NCBI RefSeq assembly: GCF_037860755.1
Contig: NZ_JBBEOI010000007.1
Span: 1 to 48,530 of the forward strand
Reading direction: 5' to 3'
Source: Aquipuribacter hungaricus
GTDB taxonomy: Bacteria > Actinomycetota > Actinomycetes > Actinomycetales > JBBAYJ01
Length of the DNA: 48,530 bases
Every line of letters begins with the position of its first letter. The stretch's first letter is position 1. Shown here piece after piece: positions 7,995-38,112 of the stretch. Made by a program: the position numbers and the translations under genes. Under the pieces are notes generated by a model that was not told where the DNA came from, did not search any database, and was given only the letters and a program-made list of their open reading frames with translations.

Positions 7995-8036
7995 GCTGGC
8001 GGTGGGACTCGAACCCACAACCGCCCGATTACAAGT
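7995..8036 (-). repeat. attL: 3' half of tRNA-Thr(UGU) (42-bp direct repeat, left copy)
   Basis: Identical to 38041-38082. On the minus strand it covers tRNA positions 31 to 72 (anticodon loop, variable loop, T-arm and acceptor 3' strand). Beyond 8036 the sequence diverges from a tRNA, so this copy is a truncated remnant. Base 7994 would give C at discriminator position 73, whereas the right-hand copy gives U. Confidence 0.92.
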
Positions 8037-8676: not shown

Positions 8677-9852
8677 ATGCAGGCCGTGAGCTCGCTGGAT
8701 CAGACCATCATCGGCCTCGTGCCGTCGTTGTCAAGGAGCCTTGCGGCCCAGTTCAACGTGTTTCGCGTCATGCGCCACGGCACCCACGAGAAGCAGTTGT
8801 CGAACGTCTTCGCCTGGCTCCTGGACGCCGACGCGACGCATGAGCTGGGGGACCGCGGCCAGCGCATCTTTCTCGAGTTGGTCAACAACTCCTCACCCAT
8901 CGGAACGGCGCTCCCGACCTCGGGCTACACAGTCACTCAGGAGGTCAACACCCTCGGGCCACAGTTGCCGGGCAAGGACATCGCCGACATCGTGCTGACC
9001 GGTCCGGACGCGTGTGTGGTGATCGAGAACTACGGCACGTCTGACGGCCACGACCACGACTACTACAGCTACCTGGAGCACGGGAGACTTCGTGCTAAGA
9101 ACGCCGTGGTCGTCCTTCTCTGCGCGAGGCACGAACCCCACCTGCAAACGGCGGGCTGGGACGAGGCGACAGTCGTCACCTACGGCGATCTGCTGAGTGG
9201 ACTCCAGAGCGCGGTTCATGATGACCGCGGGTGGAAGCGCAACCATCCGCAGCAGCACTCTTCCCTTGACCAGTTGTTCCAGCACTTCCTGAAAGGGCCC
9301 GCTGCCTTGGACCTCGACGACCGTATCGCCTTCCTCACCACCATGTGCGAGACCGGGGAGTCCGCGCGCTACGGCTATCGGCCGCAGGACGTTGCCGCGC
9401 AGGAGTTCGCGGAGCTCGTAGCACAGCACGCCAGGCGGCAGTTCGACGAGGGGCGCCAGGCCCTCTCGGAACTCAAGCGCTCGTTGAAGACTTTCGCTCA
9501 GACGACCCTCTCCGACCAGCTGAGCGAACGCGTGTCCTCGGGTCGCGTGGTCAAGGTCGAAGCGCGCTTCTCCGGCCAGTGGGAGTGGGGGGTAGCCCTG
9601 CGGCGCGCTGATTCCTCTCCGACCCTTTTCATCGTGTTCGGTCCTACCGTCGTCGCCGAGAACGCGCTCGTCCCCGTGCCCCTGGAGGCGCCGGACTTCA
9701 AGAAGTTGTTCGTCGTTCGGCAGGCACCCACCGGTAGCGGCCTCGACTGCATCCTTCAGACAGAGGTGCTCCTCACCGAGGTCTTTGACGGACTGCCGCG
9801 TGAGGACGTGCGGCTGCGCGACGCGCTCCTCGAGCTCATCGCCCTGGACTGA
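8677..9852 (+). CDS. PD-(D/E)XK nuclease-superfamily-like protein (PDDEXK_4 type)
   Basis: This 391-residue soluble protein shows the layout of PDDEXK_4-type nuclease-fold proteins: an N-terminal THEKQLSNVFAWLLD helix (36-50), an acidic strand VTQEV (Glu89), GKDIADIVL (99-107; Asp101/Asp104 candidate metal ligand) and CVVIEN (113-118). The usual ENKI-type lysine after the Glu is replaced by Tyr-Gly (ENYGTSDGHDHDYYSYLEHG), so the classic E-x-K signature is missing. Either a variant active site is used or the fold is non-catalytic. It stands alone just inside attL, a typical cargo position, and could be a defence or abortive-infection gene. ATG 8677 was chosen; GTG 8689 is an alternative. No strong ribosome site is seen. 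Confidence 0.6.
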   Translation: MQAVSSLDQTIIGLVPSLSRSLAAQFNVFRVMRHGTHEKQLSNVFAWLLDADATHELGDRGQRIFLELVNNSSPIGTALPTSGYTVTQEVNTLGPQLPGKDIADIVLTGPDACVVIENYGTSDGHDHDYYSYLEHGRLRAKNAVVVLLCARHEPHLQTAGWDEATVVTYGDLLSGLQSAVHDDRGWKRNHPQQHSSLDQLFQHFLKGPAALDLDDRIAFLTTMCETGESARYGYRPQDVAAQEFAELVAQHARRQFDEGRQALSELKRSLKTFAQTTLSDQLSERVSSGRVVKVEARFSGQWEWGVALRRADSSPTLFIVFGPTVVAENALVPVPLEAPDFKKLFVVRQAPTGSGLDCILQTEVLLTEVFDGLPREDVRLRDALLELIALD

Positions 9853-21894: not shown

Positions 21895-23331
21895 TCAGGC
21901 GGTGGACTCTCGAGTGCCGGAGTCGCCGGAGCTGCCGGTGTCGCCGTCTTCTACTACAGCCAAATCTGTTGGAGCCGCGGTCGACCCCACGATCAAGTCT
22001 TCCCAGGCAACGGGCTGCAACGGAGTGGAAGCTTGGTGCAGTCTTCGCACCTCCTTCTGCAGAGCGGCCGTGAGAACCGCGTCGGTTGCTTCGATGAAGT
22101 CGTGAAGGCTCACCACGCTGCCACGGACTTGCATATCGTTCGCCTTCGCAGTACCCCCGTGTGCCACCTTGCTGCGTACGTCGTACGCCTTGAGGAACAG
22201 GTCAAATACTTCTCGCCGGCTCCAGCCCGGCAGCTCGTTCCAGTAGGCCGCGCGCAATGAGAGCCTGAACCTTAGTTCGGTGCTATTCCCGGATAGATAG
22301 AAGGCTTCTGACGCGATGAGGAGGTCGAGGATGATGTCTTCATCACGCTCTCTCTGGTGTGCGAAACTGAGCCTACGGGAGGCGAGCGCGAGTGACTTAT
22401 GGCTGTCGCTTGCCGCACTCGCGAGGACAACCCAGGTGTCCTCGAACTGTGAGACCTGCGCCGCGCGTATGGGCACGCTGGGGCCTAAGCGAAGCGGGCC
22501 CGTGAAGGCTTGGTAGGTGACGCTCCGGCCAAGCACCGGGGCCTCTGTGAAGCCGTAGCGTCCCGCGAGCTTTACCGCACCCAAGCCCACGAGAGCCAGA
22601 CTCTGGCGGAGAAGGTCGACTTTGCTAGCGAGTTCCGACTCGTTCTCTCGCGCATACTGGAACATGGCGTCGGCGGGCCACTCGCCTACTACCTTGGGCA
22701 GTGACTGCTCGATCACCAGGCCTGCGATGCTGCTCCCCAAGACGGTGAAAACGCCAGAGTCGTAGTGTGCGCTGCGGAGGACCCCGACCCTGAGGCCAGC
22801 AACCACCTCATTATCGGTCAACGGTCGCACTGCGGTGTTTGCATCCCAGTTGAGGGTGGCGCCTTCGAGGTCCAGCCCCAAGAGAGGAATCACGGTCTTC
22901 TGCGCGACTACGTCCTCGGTGAATACCTCGACCCATGCCGTCCACGCCACGTCGAAGTTGTAGCCATCCAGTTGAGTCGGTCCCGGAAGCAGAGCCATGG
23001 CGAACCTCTCGGGTTCCATGCGCGCCGACCCCATCGGACTACCCACCAGTTGGCCCAACTGCCCATTGATAACGGCCGACTCCCGCGCCCTCTGCAGGAG
23101 TGAATCATGCTCCGGTAGCGCTGCCGCCTCGTCGTACAGACGCGGATGCCATGTAGCTGTGGCACGCCGCTTGGCGAAGGTGTTCTCGTCGGTACGTACC
23201 CACGATGTGAAGACATCGTCGTCGATCAGGAACGAGCTGGGATCGGCAAGCAGCACGTTGATCACCGCTTCGACCCACACCTGGGCGGCAGATCGAACTG
23301 AACCCAGCGCGGCCTCTGTCTCGTCAGTCAT
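21895..23331 (-). CDS. ApeA-type HEPN domain protein
   Basis: A 478-residue soluble protein. Its C-terminal third matches ApeA-like HEPN proteins: helix DIILDLLIASEAFYLSGNSTELRFRLSLRAAYW (~325-360), then REVFDLFLKAYDVRSKVAHGG with R386 and H391 forming the HEPN R-x4-H catalytic pair. The N-terminal two-thirds is a beta-rich sensor-like region with no named motif. HEPN proteins of this type usually act as RNases triggered during phage infection. ATG 23331 is the start. It lies downstream of the methyltransferase gene on the same strand with a 195-bp gap containing two hairpins, so it may be a third member of the restriction locus or a separate module. Confidence 0.62.
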   Translation of the reverse strand: MTDETEAALGSVRSAAQVWVEAVINVLLADPSSFLIDDDVFTSWVRTDENTFAKRRATATWHPRLYDEAAALPEHDSLLQRARESAVINGQLGQLVGSPMGSARMEPERFAMALLPGPTQLDGYNFDVAWTAWVEVFTEDVVAQKTVIPLLGLDLEGATLNWDANTAVRPLTDNEVVAGLRVGVLRSAHYDSGVFTVLGSSIAGLVIEQSLPKVVGEWPADAMFQYARENESELASKVDLLRQSLALVGLGAVKLAGRYGFTEAPVLGRSVTYQAFTGPLRLGPSVPIRAAQVSQFEDTWVVLASAASDSHKSLALASRRLSFAHQRERDEDIILDLLIASEAFYLSGNSTELRFRLSLRAAYWNELPGWSRREVFDLFLKAYDVRSKVAHGGTAKANDMQVRGSVVSLHDFIEATDAVLTAALQKEVRRLHQASTPLQPVAWEDLIVGSTAAPTDLAVVEDGDTGSSGDSGTRESTA

Positions 23332-23526: not shown

Positions 23527-26500
23527 TTAAGCCTCGTCGTCGAAGGACAACTCGTCTTGGCCCGTGTCCGCCCCGCCCGACTTCGGTGGTTGGCGAAGTG
23601 CGTCGGGCACGGCCGGGAGGTCGTCGGCGGATACGAGCGGACTAGCGATGATCTCATCGAGCAGCGCGACGCCGTCCGCGATGAGCGCCAGCGTCCTCCG
23701 GATCACCGCAACAATCTGAGTGAGCTCCGTGCTCCACTCGGGTGCCCACGTCGTCGGGCGGATGCGGTCAAGCGGGGACTCGCTAGACGCCGCCCGACCG
23801 ACCGCCTTGGCCATCCGGTAGCCGAGCCACTTAGGAACCACGTCCATGCCACTGACTTCGAAGTTCCAGACGGCCTCCGTCACGCCAGTGAGAGCTCCGT
23901 CGGCGACGTGCAAGGTCTCTGTAGCTGGGTCGAACGCGATATCGAATTTCGCTGTGGGGAGACGCGTGGGTTCTGGCCCCCACTCAACCCCGGCGGTCGG
24001 CACTTCGCCCGTGCCGAAGCGCTCCCCGAAGGTCTGGAGCCAGATCAGCTCTTGGCCGAGGGAAACCATGCGAGCGAACAGGCCAGCGTCGGCCGTTAGA
24101 GGCACTCGGGGTCCTGGAGTCTCTAGGGCGTCGCGGAACCGCTCGGTGTAGTCCGCGCCTGCGAGCACGGCAAAGACGTAGGCGAAGAGGTGCTCGCCGG
24201 TCACTGCAGTCCCCAGCGTCGCACTGAGCGCCTTGATCGTGGCCGGGGACGTGTTGGGCGTGCCCACGGTGTCGCGGTAGAGCGGGATAGCGTCCTTACC
24301 ACCGCGCCCGCAGAAGAAGTGTTTGTCGGGCACCGCCGTCGTAAGCGTGGCCGCGGGCCCAGCGCCGAGGCGGGTGGTGGTCATCGTCGTCAAGAAGACC
24401 TGCCTGTCGGACAAAGACGCCCACAAGGAAGGGCTTTCGGTTTTGGCGACACGCGGATCACGGAAGGTCCATTGCCGGTCGAAGGAGCGCATTCCGAAAG
24501 GCACGATGGGCTGGTGGGGCGCTCCGGGCTTGAGTTCAGCGAGGGGCACCATGCCTGAGACCTTGGTCGTGATGGTTCGCCCGGTCTTCGAAGGCGCGAA
24601 ATTTTTCAGGCGCTCTTCCGGAACGCTGGTCGCCACGAAGGCTCGCCACCGCTCCTCCAACATGCTCACGGACGGTGCTACTGGCCAGGTACGGCTAACC
24701 ATGGCGCCTGGCTGCTGCCACGGAAAGAGGTCGATCAATCTGGGGTAGGCCGCCCAGTCGAGACCACCGGAGGCAGGGATGAAAGGAGCGTGCCAGTCCG
24801 CCCGGGCTTCGGCGGTCTCCAGGTTCGTCTTGCCAGCGGCCATGTCTGTGAGCGCTTGGAGCTTCTTGGCGCGCGTGCCCCTGTAGCTGGCGTAATGAAC
24901 TCGGCCGGGCTGGCTACGGTCACCATTGCCGCGCCGGATGAGGGTGACGATCGCAACGGGGGACTCGATGTCGAACACGTTCTCGTCCTTGCGGGTGCCC
25001 TTGTTGTCGCCGTGAAGGTCCACGACGACGATGTCGTCGGCCACCTCACGAGCGAGGCGGCGCAGCCCGAGGAAGCCGGGGCCGTCGAGCCAGGACGACG
25101 CGGTGATCATCGAGATCACAGCGGGGCCGCTGTTCTCCTCGAAGACTTTCCAGATGGCCCAGCGCCAAAAGTAGACGTAGAGGTTATAGAGGCTCGCATG
25201 GGCACTAAAAATGACGTGCCTTCTGGCGTCGTCGAAAATGTCGTCAAAGAGCGAGCGTGACGCGCCTTCCTGAAGGGACGTGACGAAGCCGCCGGTGCCC
25301 ATGCTCTCGACACGGTCGTAGGGGGGATTCCCGATAAGCACGTTGTGGTTCCACTCGTACTTCACCTCGTCGGCGCGCGCGCCTTCGGTACTGATTGGAT
25401 CGCCGAGCCCCTCAATGACATGCGGGTGCCTCGCGCCAAGCGTATCGCCTAGGTAGATCGGCAAACGCGTCTTCTCTCGCAGTTCGTCGGAGATGTCGAG
25501 CGAAACCTTGAGGTGGCTCACAGCGTACGAGGCGAGCGAGATTTCGCATGCCGACGCGTGGGAAAGCCCCGCCGCTTCACCTCTCTTCTCGTCGTTGCGC
25601 TTCGCTTGGCGCAGCCACTCGACGAGAAAGGTTCCCGTCCCGTTGGCGGGGTCGAACATTGAAACGACGGCGTCGTCCGGCATTGCTCGATTCGGAACCT
25701 TGATCTCGGGGTGGTCGGCGACGTACTTGGCCCAGGTCGTTGAGTCGGCCACGCCAAGCGGAAGTCCGAATGACTTGAGAGCGTCGTCAACTGTTTTTAC
25801 TATGAAGCGCACCACCGGTAGCGGAGTGTAGAAGGCGCCAAGGTTCCTGCGCTGCTCGGGGTCGTACTGGGCCAGGAACTCTTCGTAGAAGTAGACGACT
25901 GGGTCGTCACGCTGGTTGTCCGCGCCGAAGTCCGCGAGGAGTTCATCGACGTCGGTGCTTGCGAGCTGCTCCGCCAGCTCGTTGAGGCCGAGCTCGTCGA
26001 CGTCGATCACGCCGTCGGAGTCGTCGCGAAAGCGCGAATAGATTGCGTCGAGGAAGTCGTTGTCGAAAGTGAGTGCCGAAATCGATCGGTCAGCCTTGAA
26101 CTCCTCGGGGTGCGCAATGCGGGCGGTGAGTAGCCCATAAACCATCGTTTGGGCGTAAACGTCGGCGAAGCGTTCCGGTGTGAGGTCGCCGAGGAGTCGC
26201 TCGCGGACGTCGGTGAAGAGGGCGCGGATGGGGCCGCCCTCGATCTCAATCTCATGTAGCACGCGGACTTCATCGCGGACGTCCTGGGCTACCTGGGCCA
26301 TACGAGCTGAGAGCGCCTTGGCAGACTTGATGCCCTCACGGTAGCCGTGGAATCCCTTCCCGAACTCCGGGCTAAGCACGATCCTCGGTCCGCCCGGCGG
26401 AGTCCACACCAGGTCCGGGACCCCGCGCTGAACGAGCAGGTCGATTCGGGCTTGTGTGGGTTCGTTGCTCCAGGACAGCACGCTGAGGACGCGCTTGCCG

Positions 26501-26931
26501 TCCTTCTCGCGGAAGTTCACGACGTGAAGCAGATGCTCCTCGCCCTCTGACAGGCAGAAGAAGAGCAGGTCCGGAAGCGCCCACTGGGCGTGGGTACCGC
26601 TGCCCTTACGTGCGCGCTCGTTCTTGACGAGGCGCTGCACCAGGCGCCGGATTGCCCCGACCGGGAGGCGGCCCCCGTCAAACTCCAGAACCCAAACGCC
26701 GAAGTCCTGATCTTTCTTGAGCTGAGGAATCTGGGAGATGTGCCTGAGCTTCGCAACCTTCTCCGGGTCAAGGTGAAGTTCCTCAGGCTCCCATTCGAGC
26801 TGTAGGTCGTCCCATGTGAGGCCGTCTGGTATCGGCCAGTCCAGACCGTCGAGGAGCAGGGTGAGCAGGTGCTCGGTCGATTGCGGTGCTGCCCTGAGCA
26901 ACTGACGGAGTCGGGTCTCGTTGGCGGTCAT
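23527..26931 (-). CDS. N6-adenine DNA methyltransferase with ISP-like specificity domain
   Basis: An 1134-residue protein. The ~350-residue N-terminal region has no named domain. The catalytic domain has SAM motif I MFDPANGTGTFLVEWL (from residue 425) and motif IV NPPY (535-538, in IGNPPYDR), so an Eco57I-like gamma-class adenine methyltransferase. The C-terminal part (...VVPKWLGYRMAKAVG... TTW... ELTQIVAVIRRTLAL) resembles the specificity domain of type ISP enzymes such as LlaBIII. Unlike those single-chain enzymes it carries no helicase or evident nuclease; these are in the overlapping partner gene (26928-30014, ATGA overlap). Together they likely form a restriction-modification system. ATG 26931 is fixed by the overlap. 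Confidence 0.8.
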   Translation of the reverse strand: MTANETRLRQLLRAAPQSTEHLLTLLLDGLDWPIPDGLTWDDLQLEWEPEELHLDPEKVAKLRHISQIPQLKKDQDFGVWVLEFDGGRLPVGAIRRLVQRLVKNERARKGSGTHAQWALPDLLFFCLSEGEEHLLHVVNFREKDGKRVLSVLSWSNEPTQARIDLLVQRGVPDLVWTPPGGPRIVLSPEFGKGFHGYREGIKSAKALSARMAQVAQDVRDEVRVLHEIEIEGGPIRALFTDVRERLLGDLTPERFADVYAQTMVYGLLTARIAHPEEFKADRSISALTFDNDFLDAIYSRFRDDSDGVIDVDELGLNELAEQLASTDVDELLADFGADNQRDDPVVYFYEEFLAQYDPEQRRNLGAFYTPLPVVRFIVKTVDDALKSFGLPLGVADSTTWAKYVADHPEIKVPNRAMPDDAVVSMFDPANGTGTFLVEWLRQAKRNDEKRGEAAGLSHASACEISLASYAVSHLKVSLDISDELREKTRLPIYLGDTLGARHPHVIEGLGDPISTEGARADEVKYEWNHNVLIGNPPYDRVESMGTGGFVTSLQEGASRSLFDDIFDDARRHVIFSAHASLYNLYVYFWRWAIWKVFEENSGPAVISMITASSWLDGPGFLGLRRLAREVADDIVVVDLHGDNKGTRKDENVFDIESPVAIVTLIRRGNGDRSQPGRVHYASYRGTRAKKLQALTDMAAGKTNLETAEARADWHAPFIPASGGLDWAAYPRLIDLFPWQQPGAMVSRTWPVAPSVSMLEERWRAFVATSVPEERLKNFAPSKTGRTITTKVSGMVPLAELKPGAPHQPIVPFGMRSFDRQWTFRDPRVAKTESPSLWASLSDRQVFLTTMTTTRLGAGPAATLTTAVPDKHFFCGRGGKDAIPLYRDTVGTPNTSPATIKALSATLGTAVTGEHLFAYVFAVLAGADYTERFRDALETPGPRVPLTADAGLFARMVSLGQELIWLQTFGERFGTGEVPTAGVEWGPEPTRLPTAKFDIAFDPATETLHVADGALTGVTEAVWNFEVSGMDVVPKWLGYRMAKAVGRAASSESPLDRIRPTTWAPEWSTELTQIVAVIRRTLALIADGVALLDEIIASPLVSADDLPAVPDALRQPPKSGGADTGQDELSFDDEA

Positions 26932-29900
26932 TGCACTTCCATCCAGCAGATCGTCTTTGGGGTCGGAGCATCCATCGGCAACTGGGTCTCCTTGCGCAGT
27001 CGCTTGGTCTCGTCCCGTTCTAGCCCGCGTAGTGACGCCTGGACTTTGGTGCGGTCGCTGAACGATGCAGTCGGGGTGGTCGGTCCGGCGGTGATCGCGG
27101 AGTCGATCGAGTGAAGGGATCGCTCAACGCGGTCCGTCGTCCGCAGGGACCATTCGACCTGGCCCCGATCAATGGTCCACTCGGGCTCCGCGTCGTCATC
27201 GGCAGCCTTGGTGAGCACCGGAATTCGTCGGCACACGAAGACGCCGGCGGGATCGCCTTCCTTGGCCGTGGAGATGCCTTCGGGCAGCCGCGCGACACGG
27301 TCTTCGAGGTCAGGATGGTGTTTGACGAGGTTGAGCCACTGGAGGCGAAGCTCCTCGATGGGGGCAATCTCGCCGTTGTACTCGTCCTTGAAGGCTTGGA
27401 AGACCTTCACGTCGTCGTACATGTCCGACTCATCAATTAATTTGCCGCCGGGGATGCCGAGCGTGCTCGAGATCATGAGCGTCTTGCTCTGCACGCGGCT
27501 ATAGAGGGTGAGGAGAGTCTCGATGTCGGCGGGTGGCAAGAAGTTGCGGACCTGAATGTGTCCACGTGACCTCTCCGACGCTGGTCTCGCCTTGACCAGC
27601 TCCCTCTCGATGGCTGGGTTCATCCGACGATCGACTCGACCGATGCGCTGCATCAGGCGGACCGGGTTCCAGTGAATGTCGTAGTTCACGATGAGGCCAC
27701 TATCCTGGAGGTTCACTCCCTCGCTGAGCACGTCGGTGGAAACTAGGACGCGGAGCGCTTCAGGCTTCTTGCGGTCAGTTGCAGACACCTTGTTGTAAAA
27801 GGGCGCAAACCGCTTGATCATTTCGTAGCGGTCGTTGCGGCGCGTACCATCAATCCTGTCGACGTTCGCGAGGCCGTCCTGTCGCAGCTGTTCTTCAATG
27901 TAGCGCGCAGTGTCGGCGAACTCGGTGAAAACGATCACCGGCTCATTGCGAAACTCTGGGGTGAAGACGTCCTTGTCCAGCTTCTCGGTTGAGCGCTTCG
28001 CCTGGCCGATAAGCAAGTCGCGTAGCCGCAGATACTTGTTGTCGACCCCAGCGCCATCGAGGATCAGTTCCATGAAGCGTTGGAGCTGGTCGAGGTCCTC
28101 GAAGGCCGCGTCGATCATGTCCTGTAGCCGGTACTCGCCTCCAACAAGGTTGTAGTCGAGTTCATTAAGCTCCTCTTCAGTAAGGTCTTCTTCGTGCCAA
28201 ACCTCTTCCAAAGTTGAGCGATATCGATCGTGGATCGCCTGCAATGTCGGTTCGTTGACGGCGCGCCAGTCGGTGAGGCGCCTCTCCTGTTCAGAGTGAA
28301 TCTTGGTGTTGACATCGAGCCAGTCCAGCACCTTGGCCGACAGATCAAGGCACGAACCCGCAAACGCAGCCAGGCTCGACTCGAACCGCTTGAGGAAGAT
28401 GGTGCGGATCAGGGCCACCACCTGGCGCTGACGGTTCTCCGCGCGGGTGTCGATATTGCCATCGGTCGAGAAGGCCAGCGGGTAATACATTGGCAGCACG
28501 AACAGGGGAGTTGCTCGACTGAAGGCGTTCTGCAACTCGGTGAACAGGGGGGTGTAGAGGGTGCCGAAGTCATAGGGGACCACGCGGGGCACCTGAGTTT
28601 CGGGGAACACGACCGCGGCGCCGCCAGCGACCTTCGCGCTCTCCACGGCGTACTTTCGACTGTTCTGGTGAATGACCGACTGGAACAGCCTGTCCTTCGA
28701 CATGAGGTCCGCGATCACCAGGGCGTCGGGAACTGCGGACTTGAAGGGCTTTTCCAGAGTCACGACATACTTGCGTAGGCTGGTGATGCCAATGCTTGCG
28801 AAGTGGCTGTCCGCGTCGACACCGGTGAAGAGCTCCGCCTGGTGCACAAGGTCGAAGAGCGAGTTGTTGATGGGTGTGGCCGTGAGAAGAAAGACGGTCT
28901 TCCCCTTGCAGATTTCGTGCATCCGCCACCACCGGGAGCCCCAGGGGTTCTCTTCGGTCGGGTTCTTGCCGTGGTTCCGGAAGTTGTGGGCCTCGTCGAT
29001 GATTATGACGTCGGCCCGCTTAGCCAGGTGCTCGATCTCGTCGGCGCCTTTTTGGGTTGTCAGATCAGTGTGCGCGCGGACAAGCACGTTAGAAAATTGG
29101 CCGAACAGCTCGGGAAGCCGCTCCTTCAGCTCAGGGTTCCAAACCGCGTCTTGGCCGGTCTTGGTCGCCATAATGAGGACATTTTTCCGGTGCCTCACCG
29201 CGTAATACTCAGTCAGCATCAAGCCGACGAACGTCTTGCCCAATCCGACGCCATCGGTCAGAAATCCCCCGTTCCACTGGCGCGACATCTCGATGAGCGA
29301 ATGAAAACCTTCCTGCTGGTAGGGCGCGAGCATCGGATAGATGACAGACTCGGAGTCCTCCCAGGTCTTGTCCGTCGGGTCGACGTTCGCGGTGAGTGCG
29401 TGCAGCGCCTTTGCATACACCTCGAAGGGTGTGAACTCGCGGGCGTTGTGCTCCAGAACCGCGAGCAACTCCGTGTTGACCCGGGTCGCTTCGTCCCAAT
29501 GGTTGTCGTACCACTCCTGGAGGTCAGCCACCTCGGGACCCTGAAACTTCACGTTCAACTCGACGTTTTGCGTGAGCCCGGGGCGAGTGAAGTTGGATGA
29601 GCCGACCAGGGCGGCCGAGCCGACGACCTTCAGCTTGCTGTGGGTGATGTAGGCCTTAGCGTGAAACTTCTTAGGCTTGTAGACTCTGATCTCGATTTTG
29701 CCGGTACGGATGCTCTCGACCACTGCGTCAACGCCGGTCAGAAAGGCGTCACCGGTCTGGCGTTCGAGAACGATTGATGTGTCCAGGGCGGCCGCGATAG
29801 CGTCGGCGGTCGTGCGACTGGTTTCGCCGCCAATTAGCAGCCGGATCTTCTCCACTTTCTGCCATGCGCCATCCAGGGCGAGGAAGGCGCCGATCTCAAA

Positions 29901-30014
29901 GTGGCCAGTGGCGATGTCGATCGACGAACTAATGTCGCACCACTCGCGGACGTACTGAAGCGCCTTCCAGTCCTCAGCGGTGTTGTCAACGATGAACTGG
30001 TCTGGTGTCGCCAC
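26928..30014 (-). CDS. PLD-nuclease / SF2 helicase fusion (restriction subunit)
   Basis: A 1028-residue protein. The N-terminal phospholipase-D-type nuclease domain has H118-x-K120 (KKFHAKAYI) and GSSNFT with N141, with an E following in QNVELN: one HKN half-site, so a dimer would be needed for catalysis. An SF2 helicase/translocase follows: Walker A DGVGLGKT (K260), DEAH (340-343, VIIIDEAHNF), LLTATPINNS, LVSTDVLSEGVNLQ and QRIGRVDRRMNP. All motifs look intact. GTG 30014 follows a GAGGAG site about 7-9 bases upstream. It is translated just before, and overlaps, the methyltransferase gene. Predicted to translocate on and cut unmethylated DNA; this assignment is inference from domains and neighbours. 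Confidence 0.82.
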   Translation of the reverse strand: MATPDQFIVDNTAEDWKALQYVREWCDISSSIDIATGHFEIGAFLALDGAWQKVEKIRLLIGGETSRTTADAIAAALDTSIVLERQTGDAFLTGVDAVVESIRTGKIEIRVYKPKKFHAKAYITHSKLKVVGSAALVGSSNFTRPGLTQNVELNVKFQGPEVADLQEWYDNHWDEATRVNTELLAVLEHNAREFTPFEVYAKALHALTANVDPTDKTWEDSESVIYPMLAPYQQEGFHSLIEMSRQWNGGFLTDGVGLGKTFVGLMLTEYYAVRHRKNVLIMATKTGQDAVWNPELKERLPELFGQFSNVLVRAHTDLTTQKGADEIEHLAKRADVIIIDEAHNFRNHGKNPTEENPWGSRWWRMHEICKGKTVFLLTATPINNSLFDLVHQAELFTGVDADSHFASIGITSLRKYVVTLEKPFKSAVPDALVIADLMSKDRLFQSVIHQNSRKYAVESAKVAGGAAVVFPETQVPRVVPYDFGTLYTPLFTELQNAFSRATPLFVLPMYYPLAFSTDGNIDTRAENRQRQVVALIRTIFLKRFESSLAAFAGSCLDLSAKVLDWLDVNTKIHSEQERRLTDWRAVNEPTLQAIHDRYRSTLEEVWHEEDLTEEELNELDYNLVGGEYRLQDMIDAAFEDLDQLQRFMELILDGAGVDNKYLRLRDLLIGQAKRSTEKLDKDVFTPEFRNEPVIVFTEFADTARYIEEQLRQDGLANVDRIDGTRRNDRYEMIKRFAPFYNKVSATDRKKPEALRVLVSTDVLSEGVNLQDSGLIVNYDIHWNPVRLMQRIGRVDRRMNPAIERELVKARPASERSRGHIQVRNFLPPADIETLLTLYSRVQSKTLMISSTLGIPGGKLIDESDMYDDVKVFQAFKDEYNGEIAPIEELRLQWLNLVKHHPDLEDRVARLPEGISTAKEGDPAGVFVCRRIPVLTKAADDDAEPEWTIDRGQVEWSLRTTDRVERSLHSIDSAITAGPTTPTASFSDRTKVQASLRGLERDETKRLRKETQLPMDAPTPKTICWMEVQ

Positions 30015-36609: not shown

Positions 36610-36785
36610 TGGACGACCGGATGCTCTACCGGGTGGGAGAGGTGGCCGAGCTCCTGAGCCTCAGCAAGTCGAAGGTGTACGAGCTCATCCGTTCCGGGGC
36701 ACTGCGCTCCATCCGGATCGACGGGTGCCGGCGCATCCGTGGAGTCGACCTCAGGGCCTTCGTCGACGAGCGCTGCGTGACCTGA
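36609..36785 (+). CDS. xis: Excisionase-like helix-turn-helix protein 2
   Basis: A 58-residue protein consisting only of an HTH_17/Xis-type domain (YRVGEVAELLSLSKSKVYELIRSGALRSIRIDGCRRIRGVDL). It overlaps the preceding gene by one base, and its stop overlaps the integrase ATG by one base (TGATG). This is the classic xis-int arrangement, so it is the better Xis candidate. Confidence 0.78.
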   Translation: MDDRMLYRVGEVAELLSLSKSKVYELIRSGALRSIRIDGCRRIRGVDLRAFVDERCVT

Positions 36786-37984
36786 TGGCACGGGTGCGCG
36801 ACGGCATTATCCGGCGGGGCCGCACCTGGTCCTACGTCATCCGCGTCACGGACCTGGAGAGCGGCCGGTCCAAGCCGAAATGGGTCGGCGGGTTCGTATC
36901 CGAGGCCGAGGCGAAGGCAGCACGAGATCTTGCCCGGGTGGCGGTGCGCCGGAAGGAGTACGTCGACCGGAGCCCCGTCACGGTCGCGCAGTACCTGGAC
37001 CGATGGCTCGAGGCGCACCGCGTGGAGCTCAAGCCCAATACGTACAGGGGGTACCGCGACAACCTGGCCTCCTACGTACACCCTCGGATCGGCTCGCTCC
37101 GGCTGCAGGCGCTTACATCTGGTGCGCTGAGCGCGCTCTACCGAGACCTGTCGCAGAGCGGAGGCCGGGGCGGGGCTCCGCTGTCGCCCACGACGATCGA
37201 CTACGTGCACGCGGTGCTCCGCAAGGCGCTGAACGATGCGGTCGAGGTCGACGGCCTTATCCCCAAAAACCCGGCTCTGCGGGCAAAGAAGCCGCGGCGC
37301 GACCAGACCCGGGTGGCCGTCCTCTGGACCGCAGACGACCTCCGCCGCTTCCTCGACCATGCCGCTGGCCACCGACTCGGCGCGTTCTACCGACTCGCCG
37401 CCTACACGGGTGCGCGCCGGGGCGAGCTCCTGAACGTCCGCTGGTCGGACCTCGATCTGGACGGGTGTCGGCTTCGCGTGGTCGGCAGCACCGACGTGGT
37501 CGACGGGGTACGGGTCGACGGCACGACCAAGGGCGGCCGCGAGCGAACCGTCAGCCTCGACAGCGGGACCGTCGAGATCCTTCGGCAACACAAGCGGCGC
37601 CAGGAAGAGGACAGAGAGTTCGCCGGCACGTCGTGGGTGGTCGGCGACCTGGTCTTCAGGCGCCAGCTCGGTGATCCGCTGTACCCGGACACGGTGTCGG
37701 CGCTGATGCGGAAGATCACCGATGAGTACAACGTCGCGACGTCGAGCAGCCCCCTGCCGGCCATCCGTCTTCACGACCTGCGCCACCTGCACGCGACGTT
37801 CCTGCTCCGAGCTGCGGTGCCGGTCCACGTCGTCGCCGCCCGGCTCGGCCACCGCGATCCGGCCATCACGTTGCGCGTCTACGCCCACGTGATCGAGCAG
37901 CAAGCAACCGAGGTCGCCGGCGTCTTTGCGTCCCTCGTCGAGGCCTCGGAACGCCTCGCTGTTAGCAGCGGCGTTAGCAACTGA
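36785..37984 (+). CDS. int: Tyrosine-family site-specific integrase
   Basis: A 399-residue recombinase. It has an N-terminal arm-binding domain (~1-60), a SAM-like core-binding domain (VTVAQYLDRWLEAHR... ~62-165) and a C-terminal catalytic domain with R211 (TGARRGELL), H330-x-x-R333 (HDLRHLHATF), H356 (LGHRDP) and nucleophile Y366 (RVYAHV). All catalytic residues are present. ATG 36785 overlaps the xis stop. The gene ends 56 bp before attR, and the last codons contain the GTTAGCA arm repeats. It should recombine the 42-bp tRNA-Thr core. Confidence 0.93.
   Translation: MARVRDGIIRRGRTWSYVIRVTDLESGRSKPKWVGGFVSEAEAKAARDLARVAVRRKEYVDRSPVTVAQYLDRWLEAHRVELKPNTYRGYRDNLASYVHPRIGSLRLQALTSGALSALYRDLSQSGGRGGAPLSPTTIDYVHAVLRKALNDAVEVDGLIPKNPALRAKKPRRDQTRVAVLWTADDLRRFLDHAAGHRLGAFYRLAAYTGARRGELLNVRWSDLDLDGCRLRVVGSTDVVDGVRVDGTTKGGRERTVSLDSGTVEILRQHKRRQEEDREFAGTSWVVGDLVFRRQLGDPLYPDTVSALMRKITDEYNVATSSSPLPAIRLHDLRHLHATFLLRAAVPVHVVAARLGHRDPAITLRVYAHVIEQQATEVAGVFASLVEASERLAVSSGVSN
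37961..37979. repeat. Arm-type direct repeats GTTAGCA x2 (right end)
   Basis: GTTAGCA at 37961-37967 and 37973-37979, a 12-bp period, inside the last codons of the integrase and about 62 bp from attR. They match the pair near attL in sequence and orientation. Confidence 0.6.
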
Positions 37985-38039: not shown

Positions 38040-38112
38040 AGCTGGCGGTGGGACTCGAACCCACAACCGCCCGATTACAAGTCGGGTGCGCTACCAGTTG
38101 CGCCACGCCAGC
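38040..38112 (-). tRNA. tRNA-Thr (anticodon UGU)
   Basis: A cloverleaf on the minus strand: acceptor GCTGGCG/CGCCAGC, anticodon stem CCCGA/TCGGG with loop CTTGTAA (anticodon TGT), T-loop TTCGAGT. Discriminator is T at 38040. CCA is not encoded. A -10-like TAGCAT lies about 30 bp upstream on the minus strand. The 3' half is the right attachment repeat of the element. Confidence 0.95.
38041..38082 (-). repeat. attR: 42-bp direct repeat (right copy)
   Basis: Identical to 7995-8036. It forms the 3' part of the intact tRNA-Thr gene, so the element supplies nucleotides 31-72 of the working tRNA. Confidence 0.92.

Follow-up and report, generated by a model that had tools for sequence, protein, structure and literature searches.

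A PLD-SNF2 helicase paired with a Type IIG-like methyltransferase in an integrative element of Aquipuribacter hungaricus: a probable two-subunit restriction-modification system

Fusions of an HKD/PLD nuclease to an SF2 helicase are a known and widely reused kind of effector. They are found in SauUSI, in PbeA/CxC-ABC (PMC10853773) and in the BREX-related Type-2 systems, which combine DUF499, an HKD-Snf2 helicase, an N6-methyltransferase and DUF3780 (PMC12839542). It was reported (PMC7913695 and references there) that SauUSI dimerises via its PLD domains and that BfiI works without metal as a dimer with a single catalytic centre. ATP-dependent restriction by a PLD nuclease and an SF2 ATPase, the two parts also seen here, is known from CglI and NgoAVII (PMC4267653, PMC5737866). 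In Type ISP and Type III enzymes, methylation of a single strand is accompanied by a requirement for two sites in inverse orientation for cleavage (discussed in PMC5737866). Here we describe two coupled genes of Aquipuribacter hungaricus, HEL and MT, which encode a PLD-SNF2 protein and an N6-adenine methyltransferase with a Type_ISP_C domain. They lie in a stretch of 48,530 nt of contig NZ_JBBEOI010000007.1 (assembly GCF_037860755.1), hereafter the window, to which all coordinates refer unless a locus is named. All domain, motif, pairing and fold results are computational, from sequences and predicted structures. We consider it probable that HEL and MT form a two-subunit ATP-dependent restriction-modification system, which would work like Type I and ISP enzymes but with other parts.

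The original prediction, made from the letters of the window, had described two genes with a 4-bp overlap and all motifs intact. This is what the exact open reading frame coordinates show: the stop of HEL and the start of MT share 4 bp reading ATGA, both frames are intact, all motifs are complete, and the residues named in the prediction are present and invariant in the family alignments. The two genes and their domains are as follows.

26928..30014, minus strand: HEL, PLD-SNF2 nuclease-translocase (open reading frame of 1028 aa, GTG start)
29400..30014, minus strand: HEL 1-205, PLD nuclease domain with one half-site, H118-x-K120 ... S139-S-N141 ... E152, invariant in 21 relatives
27465..29399, minus strand: HEL 206-850, SWI2/SNF2 motor by fold match (Walker A K260, DEAH 340-343, QRIGRVDR 789-796)
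26931..27464, minus strand: HEL 851-1028, C-terminal region, fold without assignment, conserved in all paired relatives
23527..26931, minus strand: MT, gamma-class N6-adenine methyltransferase with Type_ISP_C recognition domain (open reading frame of 1134 aa, ATG start)
26332..26931, minus strand: MT 1-200, N-domain, predicted to dock HEL; single-chain relatives have a PD-(D/E)XK nuclease at this position
25897..26331, minus strand: MT 201-345, helical coupler, aligning with LlaBIII from residue 716 and with DrdV from residue 152
24772..25896, minus strand: MT 346-720, N6-methyltransferase domain with D427PAxGTGT and N535PPY, fold match to LlaBIII, LlaGI and DrdV
23632..24771, minus strand: MT 721-1100, Type ISP C-terminal target-recognition domain (PF18135, 2.7e-67)

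HEL matches PLDc_2 (6.7e-12), SNF2-rel_dom (1.3e-7), Helicase_C (5.5e-17), the RE_NgoFVII PLD family (7.6e-6) and ResIII in Pfam, as expected from the earlier description of an SF2 motor with an N-terminal PLD nuclease, and it matches the PADLOC candidate C3a139 'HKD+Snf2' (2.1e-57). The protein contains one HxK...SxN motif, that is, the single half-site that had been predicted and that BfiI and SauUSI likewise have. H118, K120, S139-S140-N141, E152, G257-x-G259-K260-T261, DEAH and QRIGRVDR are all invariant in the alignment of 21 relatives. The profile of the PLD domain matches BfiI (2c1l, 4.7e-4) and, weakly, SauUSI (7clg, 0.04), and the pattern HxK...SxN...NxE is common to them. Because the related BfiI and SauUSI are dimers, dimeric cutting is reasonable to expect, and the PLD domain of HEL likely dimerises to cut, as had been suggested. 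The suggested metal independence is plausible by analogy for the PLD step only: PLD chemistry requires no metal, whereas ATP hydrolysis does. The motor model superposes on SNF2 translocases, on ALC1 (7enn) with Z 19.4 over 407 residues (root-mean-square deviation (rmsd) 3.7) and on ZorD with Z 17.1. RapA was the first PDB entry retrieved by the HEL profile, and no ISP chain (LlaBIII, LlaGI) was among its PDB matches. On profile and model, the motor is classified as SNF2/RapA-like. The C-terminal region, residues 851-1028, is a possible contact surface. No SRA, other target-recognition family or B3 domain was matched by Pfam in HEL.

In MT, the Pfam matches are Type_ISP_C (PF18135, 2.7e-67) and N6_Mtase (7.4e-7). 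The D427PAxGTGT and N535PPY motifs are invariant across 19 relatives, and the target-recognition domain is the least conserved MT segment between orthologues. An AlphaFold2 model (mean predicted local distance difference test score (pLDDT) 77.7) was compared over residues 202-1098. It matches LlaBIII residues 716-1577 with Z 31.8 over 772 residues (rmsd 9.7), LlaGI with Z 31.1 and the IIG enzyme DrdV with Z 30.8. The prediction of a methyltransferase and an ISP-like C-terminal domain in one gene is borne out by the Pfam and LlaBIII matches. In PADLOC, the best match of MT is a Type IIG family (668 bits), with 59.6 bits for an ISP-sized model. Plasmids and genomes hold single-chain relatives of about 1,050-1,150 aa, whose identity to MT is 32-40% over about 900 aa from about residue 200. 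In all 17 of them that were aligned, the first 200 residues contain D..ExK..Q, and its D, E, K and Q do not vary. Full-length ISP proteins of the same order served as controls: they are about 1,605 aa long, have all domains, match LlaBIII from end to end (1336 bits), and score about 1e-46 for Mrr_cat_2 and 5e-48 and 5e-50 for ISP_coupler. Neither ISP_coupler nor Mrr_cat was matched in MT at E 0.1, though the model shows a helical coupler-like region. In a tree of the core region, obtained by a quick search with SH-aLRT support only and with some rows of odd composition, the full-length ISP proteins form one remote clade on a long branch, and the paired MT cores are interspersed among the PD-(D/E)XK single-chain cores. 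A search for phage-borne MT gave only two weak matches, to Listeria-phage methyltransferases. MT is better described as a Type IIG-like modification and recognition chain, in which the nuclease domain appears to be replaced by a motor-associated N-domain, and which is paired with a PLD-SNF2 motor.

The N-domain (MT 1-200) matches no Pfam family at E 0.1 and no PDB entry by sequence. Among 396 genomes of the order, ISP_C is present in 65 and the N-domain in 3, and HEL lies directly upstream in all three of these N-domain loci (one of them the L001 contig). Two N-domain queries against plasmids gave no match. We considered a decayed PD-(D/E)XK nuclease and rejected it: only the start of the coupler aligns in a profile-profile comparison of the N-terminal regions of paired and single-chain proteins, and the paired MTs have no conserved D..ExK nuclease motif in this region. 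By sequence, the N-domain is unrelated to the PD-(D/E)XK domain of the single-chain relatives.

With HEL as a query against genome contigs, we found full-length relatives at 20 loci (39-88% identity) and remote ones at 60 (25-30%). An MT homologue follows HEL in each of the 20; tblastn found one after none of the 60 remote relatives, and the N-domain is in none of these remote loci. The 20 loci come from taxa including Actinobacteria, Acidimicrobiia, Gammaproteobacteria, Holophagae, Pirellula and one Euryarchaeota metagenome-assembled genome, a taxonomic spread that is only indicative because several metagenome-assembled or viral-contig entries may be misbinned. The pairing is also present in a further genome of the order (L133) and in seven IMG/VR contigs; an eighth was left out, as it ends too early downstream of HEL. 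With the window included, HEL and MT are paired in 29 of 29 testable loci. Their junctions are mostly overlaps of 1-4 nt, in many cases of the ATGA type, or gaps of a few nt, and looser junctions occur in L020 (70 nt), L015 (24 nt) and L009 (about 0.8 kb). The MT frame is broken in L009 and frameshifted in L001. These counts indicate that the association of HEL and MT is not due to chance.

Co-variation was assessed as the Spearman correlation of pairwise identities over 23 HEL-MT pairs. N-domain identity follows HEL identity with rho 0.82 (jackknife 0.81-0.84), against 0.43 for the coupler, 0.49 for the methyltransferase domain and 0.30 for the target-recognition domain. Along MT, the correlation in a sliding window is about 0.8 at residues 141-240 and goes down to about 0.3 in the target-recognition domain. 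One locus, L002, is instructive: its HEL is 75-84% identical to other actinobacterial HELs, its methyltransferase and target-recognition domains have identities of 0.40-0.43 and 0.33-0.37, and its MT core groups with Acidimicrobiia cores in the tree. In addition, the well-supported branches require three or more label changes for the paired cores. The above observations indicate that methyltransferase and recognition cores have been exchanged under conserved motors. Since the N-domain is exclusive to HEL loci and co-varies with HEL, the simplest reading is that it is a docking domain which stays with its motor while the cores change.

Theoretically, the two could also be independent defence genes in one operon, MT being a solitary or protective methyltransferase and HEL a SauUSI-like PLD-helicase with a (modified or structural) target of its own. 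A PLD-SF2 fusion does act alone in SauUSI (PMC7913695), and such fusions occur beside quite different partners. However, the pairing holds in all 29 loci and is mostly tight, the N-domain of MT is found only beside HEL and tracks it, and Pfam detects neither SRA nor another recognition domain in HEL. We regard independent genes as unlikely.

A two-subunit restriction-modification system, which would restrict phages, could work as follows. MT would bind an asymmetric site via its C-terminal recognition domain and, as expected from the ISP and IIG families, methylate one adenine on one strand. Its N-terminal region of about 200 aa would dock or recruit HEL. At an unmethylated site HEL would be engaged, hydrolyse ATP and translocate along duplex DNA. 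Cutting would take place when two HEL PLD domains meet as a dimeric active site of the BfiI/SauUSI type, probably as complexes that started from head-to-head sites run into each other. Two head-to-head sites are expected because, with methylation on a single strand, daughter sites would be open to cutting if one site sufficed. We give about an even chance to a broader proposal, that such pairs make up a distinct mobile and modular class. The N-domain would here be a true docking adapter replacing the IIG-type nuclease, fixed-distance cutters would have been turned into long-range ATP-dependent PLD-SNF2 restriction, and one motor lineage would repeatedly have taken new cores by recombination behind the adapter, giving a naturally re-targetable platform.

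Four points weigh against the two-subunit system as drawn here. First, the model borrows from characterised ISP enzymes both the methylation of one strand and the requirement for two sites. Second, the structure prediction of HEL is weak (mean pLDDT 60.6). Third, physical linkage may give part of the co-variation between N-domain and HEL, because the N-domain coding region adjoins HEL; docking is therefore a role that we infer. Fourth, a HEPN_Swt1-DUF3320 gene overlaps MT in several relatives, and the system may therefore sometimes comprise more than HEL and MT.

An integrative element of about 30 kb carries the pair, and exact copies of a 42-bp repeat mark its two ends:

7995..8036: distal attachment repeat, 42-bp exact copy of the 3' part of tRNA-Thr
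38041..38082: proximal attachment repeat inside tRNA-Thr, beside the integrase gene (36725-37984)

The element carries RepSA, FtsK-like, GntR/UTRA, NUDIX, tyrosine integrase and conjugation-type genes and is an actinobacterial integrative conjugative element (window 7988-38082). The G+C content of the HEL-MT pair is 0.59-0.64, compared with 0.70-0.83 in the flanks. Just inside the left attachment repeat there is a PDDEXK_4 nuclease-superfamily gene (8677-9852, plus strand; 3.3e-7). On the same strand as MT and 195 bp downstream of it lies an orphan gene of 478 aa (21895-23331, minus strand), for which we found no Pfam or PADLOC match and no relative in plasmids or in 197 other genomes of the order. 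Its product has a HEPN-like stretch, 'RSKVAHGG' (RX4H). In most close actinobacterial relatives the third gene is the HEPN_Swt1-DUF3320 fusion, which the window does not contain and which meets or overlaps the end of MT in L002, L003 and L006:

L002:16446-17573: HEPN_Swt1-DUF3320
L003:14578-15750: HEPN_Swt1-DUF3320
L006:16560-17657: HEPN_Swt1-DUF3320
L001:9729-10826: HEPN_Swt1-DUF3320
L017:8319-9683: HEPN_Swt1-DUF3320 (upstream)

Its product is a candidate RNase back-up effector, and it is speculative that the 478-aa gene is a functional substitute for it. In another relative, a GHKL ATPase gene (HATPase_c_3, L007:17063-19210) directly follows MT and recalls the MORC-type ATPases reported in restriction-modification operons.

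These HEPN genes beside several relatives would fit a BREX-like or signalling function. MT would then label the cell's own DNA, and HEL would stop phage replication or set off abortive infection instead of cutting at specific distances. BrxX/PglX comes next in fold match to MT (residues 202-1099, Z 23.1), and HKD-SNF2 helicases are present in BREX-related Type-2 systems (PMC12839542). However, the PLD active site is intact in all relatives, and among the operon neighbours scanned there was no match to PglZ or another BREX gene, and none to DUF499, DUF3780 or Drm. In the whole genome (99.6% complete), DUF499 was not found, with a match in one control genome, and the scan for DUF3780 gave no match here or in any control genome. 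A BREX-like function seems quite improbable to us. The original prediction of a split ISP-like system is right in that MT has the Type_ISP_C domain and over the full length of residues 202-1098 folds like the C-terminal half of LlaBIII. A genuine split Type ISP enzyme, derived from a LlaBIII-like chain that underwent fission and had its nuclease replaced, we regard as very improbable, given an MT core far from the ISP chains and nested among Type IIG-like PD-(D/E)XK single-chain proteins in the quick tree, the PADLOC scores, an undetected ISP_coupler, and a SNF2/RapA-like motor whose profile did not retrieve LlaBIII or LlaGI.

The remote HEL relatives (L021-L080) are HKD-SNF2 helicases of the C3a139 kind and make up a large sister group, in which many of the helicase genes have a large N6-methyltransferase gene after them. 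All three of the Pfam-checked methyltransferases beside them have Eco57I/TaqI_C, and the sister group seems to be a separate, widespread class of two-gene systems. Two plasmid loci are also of note. The Synechocystis plasmid pSYLA (L089:5803-13911) carries an ISP_C methyltransferase without PD-(D/E)XK, then a nucleotidyltransferase and DUF86, and then a helicase of 1404 aa with weak PLD and SNF2 matches; this is possibly an independent case of the same nuclease-domain replacement. On an Enterococcus plasmid (L082:8971-17887), a remote PLD-SNF2 helicase shares one gene run with a DEAD/DEAH helicase, a site-specific DNA-methyltransferase and DUF4391, and this run resembles a Type III-like system to which a motor has been added.

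On plasmid records the two genes are annotated as 'type ISP restriction/modification enzyme' and 'helicase-related protein', and current annotation hides their pairing. The pair shows a possible natural route from a self-contained enzyme that cuts and marks to a two-part ATP-powered one by exchange of a single domain, and matched families, with the nuclease or with the adapter, exist for studying this change. Should the N-domain prove to be a docking adapter, its transfer to other recognition chains of the IIG type may open a route to programmable ATP-dependent restriction. HEL-MT would also fill a gap between Type I/ISP, Type IIG, SauUSI and CglI, as a motor-fused PLD nuclease with specificity provided in trans by a methyltransferase.

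Among known systems, the closest relatives are the single-chain Type IIG-like PD-(D/E)XK-methyltransferase-Type_ISP_C proteins, which have the coupler, gamma methyltransferase and recognition domain in common with MT. They occur, for example, on plasmids of Thermus aquaticus, Oceanithermus, Streptomyces and Corynebacterium, and DrdV is a structurally characterised IIG relative. Type IIG enzymes have the nuclease, methyltransferase and recognition domain in one chain, and all 17 aligned relatives carry an N-terminal PD-(D/E)XK domain. This domain is absent from MT, whose N-domain is unrelated to it, and a motor-nuclease that depends on ATP is added as a second protein. LlaBIII and LlaGI are alike in the coupler-methyltransferase-recognition fold of their C-terminal half and in combining a nuclease, an SF2 motor and modification, but they are one chain with an Mrr nuclease, whereas here there are two chains, a PLD nuclease and a SNF2 motor of another family. 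Type_ISP_C and the gamma N6-methyltransferase were found as in Type ISP; the single chain, the Mrr nuclease and ISP_coupler were not. SauUSI, a Type IV enzyme (PLD-SF2-coupler-SRA), resembles HEL in having a PLD with one half-site at the N-terminus and an SF2 motor after it. It carries its own SRA domain that reads 5-methylcytosine, whereas recognition and modification are here in a separate MT; HEL has no SRA or target-recognition family match, and its C-terminal 180 aa have no assigned fold. In CglI and NgoAVII the R protein (PLD and B3) carries recognition, with a separate Z1-type helicase (H/N) and a separate methyltransferase. HEL-MT differs in that one chain holds both PLD and SNF2 motor; no B3 was matched, and recognition is in the N6-methyltransferase subunit. 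The BREX-related Type-2 systems have the logic of an HKD-Snf2 effector plus an N6-methyltransferase in common with HEL-MT, but MT has a C-terminal ISP_C and no DUF1156 match, and the genome lacks DUF499. A comparison with DISARM DrmD and DrmMI had also been suggested. It did not hold: MT has no match to DrmMI at E 0.1, the methyltransferase that goes with DrmD-DrmA-DrmB-DrmC in class 1, and HEL matches the DrmD models in the helicase region only, with 133.5 bits against an NCBIfam cut-off of 610. Finally, the pairs of C3a139 with Eco57I/TaqI_C have a helicase 25-30% identical to HEL, usually followed by a large N6-methyltransferase gene, but their methyltransferase and recognition domains are of other kinds, and they lack both ISP_C and the N-domain. 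A pair of an ISP_C methyltransferase and a PLD-SNF2 protein is not described in the libraries and open literature searched, with REBASE, subscription papers and most preprints outside this scope, so that a name may already exist. While the PLD-SF2 kind of effector is known, what appears new is the specific combination of an ISP_C-type core, a motor-associated N-domain and a PLD-SNF2 partner.

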